Source: Bacteroidales bacterium
GTDB lineage: Bacteria; Bacteroidota; Bacteroidia; Bacteroidales; UBA932
Assembly: GCA_024398105.1 (NCBI GenBank)
Contig: JAKSJP010000002.1
Location: 1-64,000 of the forward strand
Direction: 5' to 3'
DNA length: 64,000 nt
Position numbers and translations under genes: made by a program. The notes under the pieces are model-generated. The model was not told the DNA's origin, ran no database searches, and saw only the letters and a program-made list of their open reading frames with translations. Numbering within the stretch: the first letter of the stretch is position 1; each line of letters starts with the position of its first letter. Positions 58,414-63,609 of the stretch are shown in pieces.

Positions 58414-59772
58414 ATGGTCGTGCCAAAACAAGAAAACACTTATATGAGCGCAGGAAAACTATATATCGAGACCTATGGATGTCAGATGAACGTCAATGAC
58501 ACCGAGGTCATCTTCTCTATCCTCGGCAAGGAAGGATATGAACGCACTGAATCAATGGAAGAGGCTGACGTGATCCTTGCCAACACCTGTTCAGTAAGAG
58601 ACAACGCAGAGCAGAGGATCTGGGGCAGGATCGAGCAGTTCAACCTCGCCAAGAAGGCAAAGCCTTCGGTCATCATCGGAATCGTAGGATGTATGGCAGA
58701 GAGGCTCAAGGAAGACCTTCTTGACAGCCACAAGGTAGATCTCGTGGCAGGTCCTGACGCCTACCGCACTCTTCCTGAGCTCGTAGCGGCAGCGAAGCCT
58801 GGCAACCCGCAGATAAACGTGATGCTCTCCAGAGAAGAGACCTATGGAGACATCACTCCTGTCAGGATCGACAAGAACGGAGTATCCGCATTCATCTCGA
58901 TCATGCGTGGATGCAACAATGTATGTTCATACTGTGTGGTACCATATACCCGAGGCGCAGAAAGAAGCCGCGACCCTCACACCATCGTACGCGAGGCATG
59001 CGACGTCTTCAGCAGAGGCTACAAGGAAGTCACCCTTCTGGGACAGAACGTAGACTCCTATTTCTGGAAGAGCGAGGAAGGCAACGTCAACTTCGCAGCG
59101 CTTCTCAGGATGGTTGCCGAAGTCAGCCCTGAGCTGCGCGTAAGATTCTCGACATCAAATCCTCAGGACATCAGCGACGAGGTCATCGAGACAATGGCGG
59201 CCTACGAGAACATCTGCAAGCACATCCATCTTCCTGTTCAGTCAGGAAGTGACGTGATGCTCGAGAAGATGCGCAGAAGATACAGCCGTGAGTGGTACCT
59301 TTCAAGGGTCGCAAAGATCAGGGAAGTCCTCCCTGGCTGCGGACTCACCACCGACGTGATCGCCGGATTCTGCGGCGAGACGGAGCAGGACCACCAGGAC
59401 ACTCTCTCCCTCTTCGAGGAGGTATGCTTCGACTCCGCATTCATGTTCTATTACTCTGAGAGACCTGGCACCCTTGCGGCAAAGAAGTACAAGGACGACA
59501 TCGACATCGAGACCAAGACACGCCGTCTCAACGAGATCATCGCCCTCCAGGGCAAGTGCTCCCTCAAGAGCTACCAGGGCGAGGTCGGCAAGACCTTCAA
59601 GGTTCTCGTCGAAGGCCCTTCGAAGAAGAGCGCAGACGAGCTCTGCGGCCGTGCATCCAACAACAAGATGTGCGTCTTCCCTGACAAGGTCCACAAGGCC
59701 GGCGACTATGTGACCGTCAAGGTCCTTTCAGCCACCTCCGCCACCCTCCTCTGCGAGCTGGTCGAGGCATAG
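58414..59772 (+). CDS. miaB: tRNA methylthiotransferase MiaB
   Basis: Radical-SAM enzyme that adds the methylthio group to i6A37 of tRNAs. 452 residues. N-terminal MTTase domain with cysteines in ETYGCQMN, ANTCSVRDNA and GIVGCMAERL; radical-SAM cluster GCNNVCSYCVVPYTRG; C-terminal TRAM domain (about 385-448). The ATG at 58444 (MSAGKLYIETYGC) is nearer the usual family start, while the one at 58414 adds ten residues; the sequence does not decide. Motifs fit MiaB rather than MtaB or RimO. Confidence 0.93.
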   Translation: MVVPKQENTYMSAGKLYIETYGCQMNVNDTEVIFSILGKEGYERTESMEEADVILANTCSVRDNAEQRIWGRIEQFNLAKKAKPSVIIGIVGCMAERLKEDLLDSHKVDLVAGPDAYRTLPELVAAAKPGNPQINVMLSREETYGDITPVRIDKNGVSAFISIMRGCNNVCSYCVVPYTRGAERSRDPHTIVREACDVFSRGYKEVTLLGQNVDSYFWKSEEGNVNFAALLRMVAEVSPELRVRFSTSNPQDISDEVIETMAAYENICKHIHLPVQSGSDVMLEKMRRRYSREWYLSRVAKIREVLPGCGLTTDVIAGFCGETEQDHQDTLSLFEEVCFDSAFMFYYSERPGTLAAKKYKDDIDIETKTRRLNEIIALQGKCSLKSYQGEVGKTFKVLVEGPSKKSADELCGRASNNKMCVFPDKVHKAGDYVTVKVLSATSATLLCELVEA

Positions 59773-59883: not shown

Positions 59884-60126
59884 CCCACCTACGTCATTTT
59901 TGAAGATTTATGCCCTAGGTGGCCCTCCCATATTCCCACCTACGCCATTTTCACCGGAATCTGACATAGGTGGGATTCTTTTTTGACCACCTACATCACT
60001 TTTGCCTTTTTTTGCCCTAGGTGGGACTCCCATATTCCCACCTACGTCATTTTTGACCGGATTTGACTTTGGTGGGATTCTATTTTGCCCACCTACATCA
60101 CTTTTGGCGGAATCTGGCCTAGGTGG
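59884..60126 (+). repeat. Left REP array: five palindromic units with 50-52 bp period
   Basis: Units begin at 59884, 59935, 59987, 60037 and 60088. Each is about 39-41 bases: left arm CCCACCTACrTCA (or CGCCA), variable centre, right arm TGnCnTAGGTGG(G). Arms pair over about 10 of 12 positions. Two spacer types alternate: CTCCCATATT and ATTCTnTTTTG. The array lies 384 bp before the RAYT gene, with the units in plus orientation. Confidence 0.85.
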
Positions 60127-60509
60127 AAAGCCATTTTTTACAAGCCACCAATGAGCCCCTTCATGTCGGCACCAAGCTCGTCGAATTGGCTTCCGGCGGC
60201 CCAGCTTGGTACCATGATCATCAGACCAGCAACCGACACAACAGATTGGCACATTGCCCACCAAATCAGCGACCGGCCAGCCATAGTCAGAAAGCAATGA
60301 GGCTTTCAGCCGAGTAAAGAATTATTTGACCTAGGTCAAGCAGGGAGCCTTACCTGGTAAAGAAATCAGTTTACCAGTAAAGAATCATGCAGGCTCGGTA
60401 AAAATTCCTGAATTCATTCGTCCATGAGCCGGAGTCTTAAAACGGCTTCTCATTCACAATTCATATATTCAGCCACCAAAACAATCATGAACATCAGTCG
60501 AAAACAATC
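60127..60509. other. Non-coding stretch between left REP array and RAYT gene
   Basis: No convincing gene. It contains a perfect 14-bp palindrome TTGACCTAGGTCAA (60326-60339) and an inverted repeat CTGGTAAA-N8-TTTACCAG (60354-60377). A reading frame on the minus strand (to 60297) runs into the repeats and shows no recognisable domain. Confidence 0.6.
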
Positions 60510-61439
60510 ATGAAATATTACCATTTCTGCACCGAAGGTCTGAAAAGAGGTGTGATCTTCAGAGATGATGAAGACTTCATCGTCGGAATGAACTATGTCG
60601 CAATAACGGCAAGGGAATGCAATCTCGTAATTCTGGCGTTCTGCCTCATGTCCAACCACTGGCACTTTGTCGTATGGGGAAACCTGGACGACATCGCCAG
60701 ATTCAACACGATGCTTAAGAGGAGGATTTCCATGTGGCTGCACCAGAAATATGGTGTCAACCACTACCTGAAGAACCAGGCGACCTCAGTCAAGGAAGTC
60801 GAAAACGTTGACTATCTAAGGAAAGTCATCGGCTACGTACTAAGGAATCCTGTCGTCGCAGGCATCAACTGCACGATCGAGAGCTACCGCTGGAGCAGCG
60901 GCGGCTGTTACTTCAACCAGCCGTCGACGTCGGACGTCAGAGACGGTCACATGACAGCCTCCGAAGGGGACGAGAGGCGCACCGAAGGCCCTATCATCCT
61001 GACAGAAAAGACAAAAGGTGTCATGACAGATAGAGCAAAAGGTATCATCTGCAAGACAAACAGCAATGCAAGAAAAGGGTTCATGCCTGACGTCCATGGG
61101 ATGATTCATCCTGTACAATATATTGACCGCGAGGCTGTCATGGGCATATTCAGAACAGCTAAATCATTTATTTACAACGTAATGGCCTTCAAGTCTTTTG
61201 ACATGGACCTCGAGTTGGAGAACGGTCTCGCGAAGAAAATCACCATGGATGACAGCAAACTCCTGAAAGTCGCCGACAGCATCTGTCTGCAGGAATTCAA
61301 TGTCAAATCGACGGAAATGCTCCCGACAAAAGACAGATGCCGGATCGCCGTGATGCTGCGAAAACAATACGGAGCGTCGGACAAGCAGATTTCCCGGATT
61401 CTGGACATTGACCCAGAAGTGGTCGGTTACATCAGATAA
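60510..61439 (+). mobile_element. REP-associated tyrosine transposase (RAYT, Y1/HUH family)
   Basis: 309-residue single-strand transposase of the IS200/IS605-related RAYT group. HUH motif: His50 and His52 in MSNHWHFVVWG. The catalytic Tyr candidate is Tyr109 in IGYVLRNPVVAG, followed by the family's ESYRWSSGG. The C-terminal about 70 residues form a helical domain with a helix-turn-helix look (GASDKQISRILDIDPEVVGYI). Frame intact, so probably functional. It lies between two oppositely oriented palindrome arrays, the hallmark of RAYT-REP systems. No IS ends or target duplications are evident. Confidence 0.88.
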
Positions 61440-61534
61440 CAAGGCCAGCCATGTCAAAATAGTTGTGTCAGAACAGATGTGTCTGATGGCTTGATCGACA
61501 GATCGGAGAGGCATGACTGGCTTTGGTCACCGTT

Positions 61535-61852
61535 CCCACCTATGGCATTTTCGGCAGAAAGTGACGTAGGTGGGAGCAGGAAGTGACCACCTAGGGCAGA
61601 AATGGTCGAAAATGACGTAGGTGGGAGCATGGAACGACCACCTAGGGCAGAAACAGGCGAATGTGACGTAGGTGGGAACATGGAACGACCACCTAGGGCA
61701 GAAACAGGCGGAAAGTGACGTAGGTGGGAGCATGGGGCCGCATGATGATGGGGACGGGACCGAGAAGCAGGAATCAAGAGCCAGGAGCCAAGGGCCAGGG
61801 AACATGGAACGACCACCTAGGGCAGAAACAGGCGGAAAGTGACGTAGGTGGG
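61535..61852 (-). repeat. Right REP array: five units, inverted relative to the left array
   Basis: Units begin at 61535, 61587, 61638, 61689 and 61813. Four have period 51-52 bp; the fifth is displaced by a 124-bp duplication. Read on the minus strand they match the left units (CCCACCTACGTCA ... TGCCCTAGGTGG). Units 4 and 5 are identical over 40 bases. Confidence 0.85.
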
Positions 61853-61932
61853 AGCATGGGGCCGCATGATGATGGGGACGGGACCGAGATGCAGGAACCA
61901 AGAGCCAGGAGCCAGGAGCCAAGGGCCAGGGA
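61678..61932 (+). repeat. 124-bp tandem duplication containing one REP unit
   Basis: 61678-61801 is repeated from 61802. The copies differ by two substitutions (GAAGC/GATGC and AATC/AACC), and the second has a 7-bp insertion from an extra CCAGGAG-like repeat. Their high identity suggests a recent event. Confidence 0.85.
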
Positions 61933-62110
61933 ACAGGGAACAGAAGCCAGGGGTCAAGGAATAGGGATCGAGAGGCTAGGGGCCGCTGGACCAGGGCCAG
62001 AAGGCCACTGCAGAGGGGCCGGGAGAGGTGGGAGATGGGGGAAATGGCGGGACGGAAAAAGATTGTGGAAAAAAATGGAAAAGTGTGGAAGAAAATGGAA
62101 AATTTCTTCC
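61853..62110 (+). repeat. Purine-rich low-complexity tract with short GAGCCAG repeats
   Basis: The plus strand is strongly G/A-rich, with degenerate repeats such as GAGCCAGGAGCCAG and GGGAACAGGGAACAG, grading into GGAAAA-rich sequence before the mraZ promoter. No gene is supported here. Confidence 0.65.
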
Positions 62111-62148: not shown

Positions 62149-62601
62149 ATGGTCACATTCATCGGAAAGGCAACTGCAAAGGTGGACGACAAGGGAAGAA
62201 TGGTATTCCCTTCGTTGTTCAAGGCTGCTATGCCCGAAGATGAACCGATGACCTTCGTGATACATAAAGACATCTATTCTGACTGTCTTGAGATGTACAC
62301 CCTAGCCGAATGGCAGAGGCAGAGCGAGGCTGTAAAGGCCAAGCTCGACCTGCTCAATGAGAAACACGCCGGGTTCTGGAGAAGATACATGTATGACAGA
62401 GCTATGGTGACACCTGATCCGAAGCTCGGCCGTATTTCTATCCCGGCAGAACTTCTCGAAAAGATTGGTGTAACTAAAGAGGTGGTGTTCCTTGGCGGCG
62501 ACTATAAGATCGAAATCTGGGCAAAGGACAGATTCGAATCGCAGATTATTTCTGAAGAAGAATACAGATCGATGGCCGAAGAACTCTCTCAGTTGAGATA
62601 G
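62149..62601 (+). CDS. mraZ: Division/cell-wall cluster regulator MraZ
   Basis: 150 residues with two SpoVT/AbrB-like halves. The first has DDKGRMVFPSLFKAAM (about residues 14-30), the second PKLGRISIPAELLEKIGV (about 88-105). Forms ring-shaped DNA-binding oligomers that repress its own operon. First gene of mraZ-rsmH-ftsL. Confidence 0.93.
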   Translation: MVTFIGKATAKVDDKGRMVFPSLFKAAMPEDEPMTFVIHKDIYSDCLEMYTLAEWQRQSEAVKAKLDLLNEKHAGFWRRYMYDRAMVTPDPKLGRISIPAELLEKIGVTKEVVFLGGDYKIEIWAKDRFESQIISEEEYRSMAEELSQLR

Positions 62602-62610
62602 GAGGTCGTC

Positions 62611-63609
62611 ATGTCAGAATATCATACTTCCGTACTGCTTGACGAAAGCGTTTCAGCTCTCGTTACCAATCCATCAGGAACATACATTGATGCCACATTC
62701 GGAGGCGGTGGTCACACCGCTGAGATTCTTTCACGCTTAAACGAAAGCGGTAGGGTCATTGCCTTCGATCGTGACAATGACGCTATAGGCAACCGCATCG
62801 ACGACCCTCGTCTGACGCTGGTCCACAACAATTTCCGCTTCATCCACAACTATGTGATGCTGGACGCCCACAGGAAGGCGGCTGAAAAAGCAGACGACAC
62901 GAAGGCGGCAGAAGGCAGCACCGACGGCATGGACGAAGGTACCATGGACCCGTTCATGGCAAAGGTTGACGGAGTCCTTGCCGACCTCGGGGTGTCATCG
63001 CACCAGTTCGACACTGCGGAGAGAGGATTCTCGTTCAGGTACGACTCCCCTCTCGACATGAGGATGGACACGGGCGCCGACATGACGGCCGCGGATGTGG
63101 TGAACAGCTACGAGGTCGAGGAGCTCGAGAAGATTCTCAAGGTCTACGGAGAGGTCGAGAACGCACGCAAGGTCGCTCAGCTGATCGCGAAGGCAAGGAG
63201 CGAGAGCCCTCTCGCCACCACCGGTGACCTTGACAAGGCACTAGCGCCTGTGCTCCCGAAGTTCGCGGAGCACAAGTACCTCGCGAAGGTCTACCAGGCC
63301 CTGCGCATCGAGGTCAACCAGGAGATGCGCTCCCTCGAGAAGTTCCTCGAAGGGACGGCGGCATCCATCAAGGAAGGCGGAAGGCTGGTGGTCATCACCT
63401 ACCATTCCCTCGAGGACAGGATGGTGAAGAACTTCATCAAGGCGGGAAACATCGACGGAAAGGAAGAGAAGGACGTCTACGGACGCTCGCACACTCCTTT
63501 CTCGGCAGTGAACCGCAAGCCCATCCTCCCTACGGAGGAAGAGATCGCGGCGAACACCAGGGCCCGCAGCGCCAAGCTCAGGGTCGCAGAAAGGAACGGC
63601 GAGGAATAG
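62611..63609 (+). CDS. rsmH: 16S rRNA (cytosine-1402-N4) methyltransferase RsmH
   Basis: 332 residues. Start HTSVLLDESVSAL, SAM loop YIDATFGGGGHTAEIL, LADLGVSSHQFD and VITYHSLEDRMVKNF are diagnostic. A charged insertion (about residues 88-112, rich in Ala, Asp, Glu and Gly) precedes VDGVLADLGVSS and makes the protein about 20 residues longer than usual. It contains a copy of the repeated 10-mer GGTACCATGG. 9 bp after mraZ. Confidence 0.95.
   Translation: MSEYHTSVLLDESVSALVTNPSGTYIDATFGGGGHTAEILSRLNESGRVIAFDRDNDAIGNRIDDPRLTLVHNNFRFIHNYVMLDAHRKAAEKADDTKAAEGSTDGMDEGTMDPFMAKVDGVLADLGVSSHQFDTAERGFSFRYDSPLDMRMDTGADMTAADVVNSYEVEELEKILKVYGEVENARKVAQLIAKARSESPLATTGDLDKALAPVLPKFAEHKYLAKVYQALRIEVNQEMRSLEKFLEGTAASIKEGGRLVVITYHSLEDRMVKNFIKAGNIDGKEEKDVYGRSHTPFSAVNRKPILPTEEEIAANTRARSAKLRVAERNGEE

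Follow-up and report, generated by a model that had tools for sequence, protein, structure and literature searches.

A REPtron-like locus of a divergent Bacteroidales RAYT clade, in which unit length goes with the protein lineage

Do a transposase gene and the palindrome arrays on either side of it form one system, and what might the protein do to those palindromes? The question is raised by a locus in the window, by which we mean the whole stretch of DNA that was analysed, 64,000 nucleotides of a Bacteroidales bacterium (GCA_024398105.1, contig JAKSJP010000002.1). A first-pass annotation, made from the letters alone, had placed an intact HUH/Y1 transposase gene at 60510-61439 between five palindromic units on each side. 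Both points were borne out: the 309-aa frame is intact, with H50, H52 and Y109 present, and ten units were counted, of which the nine that match CCACCTA-N24/25-TAGGTGG exactly compare with none in 100 dinucleotide-preserving shuffles. The features of the locus are collected in Table 1.

Table 1. Features of the RAYT locus and its neighbourhood in the window.
Feature	Position	Strand	Basis
Upstream neighbour, UPF0004/radical SAM/TRAM protein	58414..59772	+	profile search
Left array (five units of 38 nt with 13-nt spacers, repeating every 51 bp)	59885..60126	+	motif and spacing, shuffle control
RAYT-like Y1/HUH gene, 309 aa	60510..61439	+	HUH = NHWH (H50, H52), Tyr Y109 in YVLRNP, profile matches
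Residues 274-301 near the C-terminus, weakly similar to a helix-turn-helix	61329..61412	+	HTH_23, E 0.21
Right array, four units, 51-bp period, inverted relative to left array	61536..61727	-	motif, spacing, flank alignment, shuffle control
124-bp tandem duplication carrying last right unit	61674..61921	.	copies 61674-61797 / 61798-61921, 97% identity
Fifth right unit, within the 124-bp tandem duplication	61813..61851	-	repeat comparison, spacing
Downstream neighbour mraZ	62149..62601	+	profile search
MraW-family gene after mraZ	62611-63609		profile search

The left units follow the pattern CCACCTA-NNN-CA-N14-TG-NNN-TAGGTGG and start at 59885, 59936, 59987, 60038 and 60089, a step of exactly 51 bp; the fourth has one arm mismatch, TTGGTGG. 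The right units start at 61536, 61587, 61638 and 61689, also 51 bp apart, and the fifth (61813) lies 124 bp beyond the fourth, so that the annotated 51-bp spacing applies to five left and four right units and breaks at the last one through the duplication. The annotated wording CCACCTACrTCA was right for four of the five left units; the second reads CGCCA, and a leading C is absent in the third. That the two arrays face opposite ways was confirmed, the flanks aligning with a score of 85 inverted against 35 direct. A CRISPR-like array was ruled out because the spacers repeat within most arrays of the family and are not unique. A single GACCTAGGTC palindrome, the arm of the family that belongs to a RAYT on contig C23 of the same genome, lies at 60328-60337 between left array and gene, and the DNA around and past the fifth right unit, ahead of mraZ (61738-62040), is purine-rich and looks to be of low complexity.

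Across the genome, a 13-nt spacer completes each unit. The spacer is constant or nearly so inside most arrays and differs between arrays, which points to tandem copying in place as the probable source of the arrays; in the window’s left array the spacer varies. Consecutive units were 51 bp apart in 40 of 41 cases, the exception being the 124-bp duplication, with no skipped 51-bp steps inside arrays, and most units of an array have the same orientation. The CA/TG was identical in every comparison of 12 array consensuses, and other inner positions agreed in 35-80%; the identity of the arms is partly built in, as the search for units went by the arms and tolerated one mismatch in each. The NNN triplets of the two halves were fully complementary in none of 51 units (7.6 expected), and their three positions were paired in 19, 6 and 10 units against 24, 23 and 24 expected, counts that include units of the same array, which are not independent. 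Per array consensus the figure was 0/12 against 2.0 expected (P 0.09), three array pairs among the 12 being probably one array each. In the TCGGCAC family of the same genome, 28 of 29 units have a C following TCGGCACG on one side and not on the other. The E. coli REPs require a mismatched bulge for single-strand activity, for which several base combinations seem possible according to the relevant part of PMC8266576. A stem that is polar in this way would let a strand-specific enzyme tell a REP from its reverse complement. Single-strand folds of six unit and inter-unit stretches were modest (z -1.3 to -5.1). The window palindrome has no GTAG foot, its stem starting directly with CCACCTA/TAGGTGG; in GACGTAGGTGG GTAG lies inside the stem and is present in some halves only, and the arms of the TCGGCAC and GACCTAGGTC families have none.

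Is the protein a RAYT? Its profile scores are low: PF01797 gave E 1.4e-4 and 22.5 bits (gathering cut-off 23), and NF047646, the NCBIfam model for REP-associated tyrosine transposases, gave E 4.5e-7 and 29.9 bits (cut-off 80). NF047646 matched none of nine RAYT-like genes of the same genome above its cut-off, and matched 27 of 27 aligned clade members at E 0.1 or better. H50, H52, Y109 and N113 are invariant in those 27 aligned rows (the window protein and its relatives), as are the HUH and Tyr residues in an alignment of 74; in the wider set, NG, NS or NC often stands in place of NP, and the regular expression Y..(.)NP matched 47 of 119. Homology to RAYTs is clear from the 27 matches despite the sub-cut-off scores. 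The C-terminal extension, in which Q293 is invariant and R296 nearly so in clade alignments, may hold a DNA-binding helix-turn-helix, for which the HTH_23 match is weak. A search of solved structures with A1 gave no matches.

The upstream neighbour, which we take to be MiaB-like, and mraZ lie about 250 bp apart without a RAYT between them in G071, and mraZ was inside the fetched flank at only two of 29 loci. As to an empty-site comparison, the nearest searched congener is only 77% identical at miaB, too distant for its intergenic DNA to be aligned. In another congener (G148) a different RAYT, of 29.5% identity, lies on the upstream side of miaB.

Are the palindromes private to this gene? The genome (G000; 2.43 Mb in 48 contigs, 91.8% complete) holds 48 exact window-family units, and a reversed-pattern control gave none. 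The same pattern was absent from 60 other genomes of the genus, in which the control pattern matched once (G026). The annotation’s claim of an own palindrome with dispersed intergenic copies was thus upheld; the only genome found to hold the family is the one that has the cognate gene, so the outcomes that the annotation had listed against its own reading, such as units confined to genomes lacking any RAYT homologue, did not occur. When one mismatch per arm was permitted, 53 units were found in the fetched stretches. Ten arrays lie away from the window locus; the contig-end pairs C29/C36, C37/C43 and C40/C46 have like spacers, each pair being probably a single array split by assembly, which leaves about seven independent dispersed arrays. 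Contig ends of this assembly (C29, C36, C37, C40, C43, C46 and C28) fall in or beside arrays, so that copy numbers taken from it are probably underestimates. The arrays are intergenic, with a gene 3' end on the visible side in 11 of 12 (45-419 nt away) and convergent genes around three of the six with both sides visible, a placement not far from chance level. Unit polarity relative to neighbouring genes was mixed, which counts against an RNA element; as to a replication-strand bias of polarity, GC skew was weak (-0.051 to 0.042 in 15 stretches).

The window gene is one of ten RAYT-like genes in its genome, the others being at most 32% identical to it. Each of the four tested has a dispersed family of its own; the three other families, whose counts include copies beside the gene, comprise 29 units (TCGGCAC), 32 pairs (GACCTAGGTC) and 6 units (CCTGTAG). 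The GACCTAGGTC pairs form 13 neighbouring couples, every one 84 bp apart, besides two solitary pairs and four at 28-bp spacing beside the gene. A small open frame (L056, 3484-3837) lies ahead of the GACCTAGGTC-family RAYT on C23, within direct array repeats, and C16:38437-38555 and C28:20960-21078 share the inner sequences of a GACCTAGGTC array, reverse-complemented between the two contigs, either by duplication or as an assembly repeat. Elsewhere in the genus, arrays of a CATGTGG family occur in G049 (29) and G033 (7), and RAYTs of both genomes carry CATGTGG; one match each in G008, G010 and G012 looks like coding DNA, and G017, with a RAYT whose word is shifted to CACATGG, contains no CATGTGG units. 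When TCGGCAC was searched blind in 120 further congeners, a single genome, G117, proved to have an array (13 units); G003 had one isolated match, a level that the reversed control also reached, with a single match in each of five genomes. The RAYT enclosed by the G117 array has as its best match among 192 RAYTs the TCGGCAC RAYT of the window’s genome, at 49%; the next-best, L104 (47%) and L136 (46%), both have other arm words.

Do other RAYTs of the clade have matching palindromes on their two sides? Of 61 genomes of the genus, 52 have homologues at E 0.001 or better, a single genome holding as many as 18. Relatives among 80 loci came from Candidatus Cryptobacteroides, Coprenecus and Merdivivens, which supports a Bacteroidales origin. 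A scan of genome contigs with the window protein as single query found no relatives, and plasmids and phages gave one weak match each. From a flank set of 192 distinct RAYT genes, 181 were used for arm words and 183 for flank alignment. Of 181 RAYTs, 75 had a palindromic arm word common to both 600-nt flanks, as had 238 of 28837 mismatched flank pairs; for 8-mer arm words the counts were 64/181 and 24/28837, and with one RAYT per 50%-identity cluster 19/53 and 1/2688. The remaining 106 of 181 had no common arm word within 600 nt in this strict test. The short Bacteroidales RAYTs (L285-L302, 177-202 aa) also have flanks with common palindromic arm words, in 13 of 18, and the flanks of L302, L285 and L300 are direct repeats.

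Matching flanks are thus common, and in the long-RAYT clade of Bacteroidales direct flanks are the rule and inverted ones the exception. Flank alignment exceeded its null (99% level 18, from 397 mismatched pairs of which the largest scored 83) for 126 of 183 RAYTs, 101 of them direct, 14 inverted and 11 ambiguous; at L005 the two flanks are 94% identical over 178 nt. No similar flanks were found for 57 of 183, including two of the ten RAYTs of the window’s genome (L053, L054), where six of the others are direct and two, the window gene and one on C31, inverted. With 101 direct against 14 inverted, the window locus belongs to a minority of its clade. In the first description of RAYTs, as given by Nunvar et al. 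in their account of flanking REPs (PMC2817692), these were always inverted, a rule that fails in the Bacteroidales long clade.

How closely do palindromes follow their proteins? Of the RAYT pairs that are at least 80% identical, 7 of 9 have arm words in common. The count falls to 1 of 7 at 70-80%, 1 of 21 at 60-70%, none of 103 at 50-60% and none of 213 at 40-50%; below 40% it is 18 of 2728, about background. The G117 RAYT, at 49% and with the word TCGGCAC, is an exception to the rarity of arm sharing below 60%. Among syntenic orthologues of 65-75% identity, some keep the arm word and others have a different one.

Unit length behaves differently from the arms. A period was obtained for 51 of 192 genes, for 14 of the 51 from a single repeat step: 21 lie at 50-53, 19 at 71-75 and 6 at 83-86 bp, and others at 24, 28, 62, 66 and 99. 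When one gene was taken per 60% cluster (40 clusters, after two hand edits), the class means were 51.66 (sd 0.72, 16 clusters), 72.5 (sd 0.85, 14) and 84.43 bp (sd 1.05, 7), plus 62, 66 and 99. On the RAYT tree of 50 rows unit-length class changed 9 times, against 23.1 times after shuffling (0/200); in 39 rows with practically all-different arm words (similar in 1 of 741 pairs) it changed 8 times against 18.1 (0/200). Because the class follows the tree while the arm words differ, unit length goes with the protein lineage and not with palindrome sequence. It is not a host trait, since G000 alone carries periods of 51, 66, 72-73, 84 and 99. The regular 51-bp spacing, which the first-pass annotation took as the system’s own form, holds at the window and is, more broadly, one class of lineage-specific unit lengths. 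This lineage-bound unit length is the surprising part, and it is directly testable; our searches of open-licence papers gave no report of lineage-specific unit lengths, of direct flanks as a rule, or of REP arrays in Cryptobacteroides.

Measured in turns of 10.5 bp, the three class means come close to 5, 7 and 8 (p 0.013). Jittering each cluster as a test of helical phase gave 0/20000, though the clusters share ancestry; the best single helical period was broad (10.5-11.2), and an autocorrelation phase test gave p 0.001-0.005 overall and 0.26 without the 50-54 class. Spacing of units by whole helical turns is accordingly suggestive. A negative correlation of two arm distances was discarded as evidence, as it follows from any fixed period. 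One might propose that RAYTs of this clade act as molecular rulers, their assembly setting unit length to whole turns (about 5, 7 or 8), a length inherited in the lineage while the palindrome is freely replaced; we put this forward tentatively, as a reading that is rather doubtful as it stands. If true, the geometry of these bacterial DNA repeats would be independent of sequence and inherited through a protein.

Where does the window protein stand among RAYTs? Clade proteins have about 280-320 aa and a C-terminal extension and occur as several paralogues. In an HUH-core tree of 97 rows, built on few columns and rooted at the midpoint, a branch (93/85; present in 96% of bootstrap trees) sets the 72 long proteins apart from 18 short Bacteroidales rows, E. 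coli RayT and six rows whose label, subclass-2.1-like, goes by length, motif and similarity alone. Opposite E. coli W94, in the GTAG-reading region, the window protein has K. Of the 72 long rows 4 have an aromatic in that column, three of these from the window’s own genome (L059-L061), as against all 18 short rows, always as F, and 6 of 6 2.1-like rows. The E. coli residues Q95 and R104 are rarely kept in short rows either (Q in 3 of 18, R in 1 of 18), so only the aromatic separates the groups. A loss of W/F-[EQ] specific to the long clade was considered and dropped, W[EQ] being found in 9 of 190 long rows but also in only 1 of 20 others. Among the matches listed for 197 genomes of the order, near whole-profile ones were confined to G000 and one congener; in the other 27 matching genomes matches were mostly N-terminal, with open frames mostly of 190-250 aa, and full-length relatives are present in records of Coprenecus, Merdivivens and Muribaculum.

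The genes of the clade are under purifying selection (dN/dS 0.04-0.30, with a median of 0.12 for the 27 pairs that are at least 80% identical). Most RAYTs that are at least 78% identical keep a syntenic neighbour. Among the 25 pairs at 86% or above, the best such neighbour reaches 77% or higher in all but one, where it reaches 67%; several more distant RAYT pairs, of 64-72%, lie beside a neighbour that is 80-98% identical. Comparison with the best neighbour, not the mean, suggests that RAYTs may evolve faster than their neighbours, the closest pairs showing no lag. Rapid evolution is also described for the RAYTs treated in PMC2817692. In another Bacteroidales genome (L303; G254 C278) two near-identical 232-aa subclass-2.1-like Y1 genes lie close together.

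What, then, does the RAYT do? We think it likely that a REPtron-like RAYT recognizes its private polar stem, helps to copy units and sets unit length. The protein would recognize the palindrome as a polar, mismatched stem, made of CCACCTA, an unpaired triplet, CA/TG and a 14-nt loop, and Tyr109 would nick and rejoin it as a single strand, which would help to copy units into new intergenic places. Within a place, arrays would arise by tandem copying, either RAYT-driven or by slippage, and the protein would set the unit length, 51 bp here, probably through binding of its subunits to neighbouring sites. An unlikely alternative is a domesticated DNA-binding protein that binds the arrays as double-stranded sites on one face of the helix and moves no DNA, with a role in chromosome structure, supercoiling or gene ends, the arrays growing by ordinary slippage. 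It would account for unit lengths of 51.7, 72.5 and 84.4 bp near whole turns (p 0.013), for a conserved spacing around a largely free inner sequence, for the weak C-terminal helix-turn-helix and for the lost W94 aromatic (68 of 72 long rows); the synteny of most RAYTs at 78% identity or more likewise means that the gene stays put. It sits poorly with the invariance of HUH and Tyr in both alignments and with units dispersed to unlinked sites, and the earlier period measure loses its signal (p 0.26) without the 50-54 class. The units are moreover polar and mismatched, and in PMC8266576, where it deals with E. coli REPs, single-strand activity needs the mismatched bulge.

Mobility of the whole array-gene-array segment is a quite improbable reading. 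The segment would be an IS200-like single-strand transposon, and the dispersed arrays would be solo remnants left by recombination between direct flanks. The two ends of IS608 are hairpins in the same orientation, and so are the flanks of 101 of the 126 RAYTs with matching flanks; also in favour are the long flank match of L005 and the RAYT-free miaB-mraZ interval of G071. Yet each RAYT of the window’s genome is single, the best paralogue of the window gene reaching 32%, the closest RAYT pairs keep their syntenic neighbours, and the window’s own arrays are inverted. That intergenic tandem repeats or transcript-end hairpins lie near RAYT genes by coincidence is very improbable: the intergenic position of the arrays, mostly by gene 3' ends, is often expected by chance, but the flank-matching and genome-specificity controls, the tracking of the protein tree by unit length and the mixed polarity relative to neighbouring genes speak against it. 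The clade supplies dozens of natural protein/palindrome pairs in which arm sequence and unit length vary separately, so that recognition (residues versus arms) and geometry (51, 72 or 84 bp) can be separated by comparison and in vitro. Loss of the conserved aromatic of the GTAG region did not end the association with palindromes.

Among known systems, IS200/IS605 elements such as IS608 share the Y1/HUH chemistry; the clade genes are single-copy and mostly syntenic, and near-identical gene copies at different places, the mark of mobility in that family, were not found among them. Subclass 2.6 of TnpAY1 (RAYT group 5) is, in the portion of PMC6006769 that treats it, mostly from Bacteroidetes, with atypical palindromes lacking GT[AG]G that have genome copies, and its proteins average 179 aa with WQ and YIH[QN]NP. 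The window protein, in contrast, has 309 aa, YVLRNP and no WQ, and falls outside it; our label 2.6 for the short Bacteroidales rows goes by length and Y motif only, because the strict W or Q is not kept in them. Subclass 2.1 (TIRYTs and TIRtrons, RAYT group 1) consists, as outlined in sections of PMC3733652 and PMC6006769, of long proteins with C-terminal Bac_DnaA_C or HTH-like domains and with terminal inverted repeats, often GGGGWSAS, some repeat families being dispersed or self-complementary; the passages of PMC6006769 on this subclass give it as without REP-like sequences. The window protein is likewise long, and its C-terminus may be HTH-like (HTH_23 at E 0.21); membership in 2.1 was dropped, the six 2.1-like rows lying outside the long group on the HUH-core tree.

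REPtrons (TnpAREP/RAYT groups 2 and 3, subclasses 2.2 and 2.5) come closest, with the traits that parts of PMC2817692, PMC3116915, PMC6006769 and PMC8266576 give for REPs, REPINs and BIMEs. Like the window locus they have an HUH/Y1 gene with its own flanking palindromes, and like the clade they have several RAYTs per genome, each with its own dispersed extragenic family, syntenic fast-evolving genes, and tandem, regularly spaced clusters. RAYT/REP co-evolution, several private families per genome and tandem REPIN clusters were known already from the portions of these four papers that deal with them, and the dissemination mechanism of REPs is called poorly understood in PMC8266576, at the place where it takes it up. 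BIMEs share the regular tandem spacing, but they alternate, whereas window-family units mostly point one way. Unlike REPtrons, the window’s clade lacks the GTAG foot, has mostly lost the W94 aromatic and carries a C-terminal extension; its flanks are mostly direct and its unit-length classes are tied to protein lineage. The first-pass annotation’s RAYT-REP system in a Bacteroidales form therefore stands for the RAYT-like gene and its own palindrome, and needs amending in that, lying outside the canonical rows, without the aromatic and with the extension, the system is not just a copy of the Gammaproteobacterial one with a different palindrome. Likewise, its "self-contained REP-generating locus" fits the gene, the private palindrome and the dispersed copies, and "generating" is what we infer. 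In sum, the window protein has the motifs of RAYT/TnpAREP (class 2 TnpAY1; NHWH, YVLRNP), its gene lies between palindromes of its own that also occur scattered in extragenic places, as in REPtrons, and on these sequence features the locus is a real REPtron-like system, of a kind general in a divergent Bacteroidales RAYT clade.
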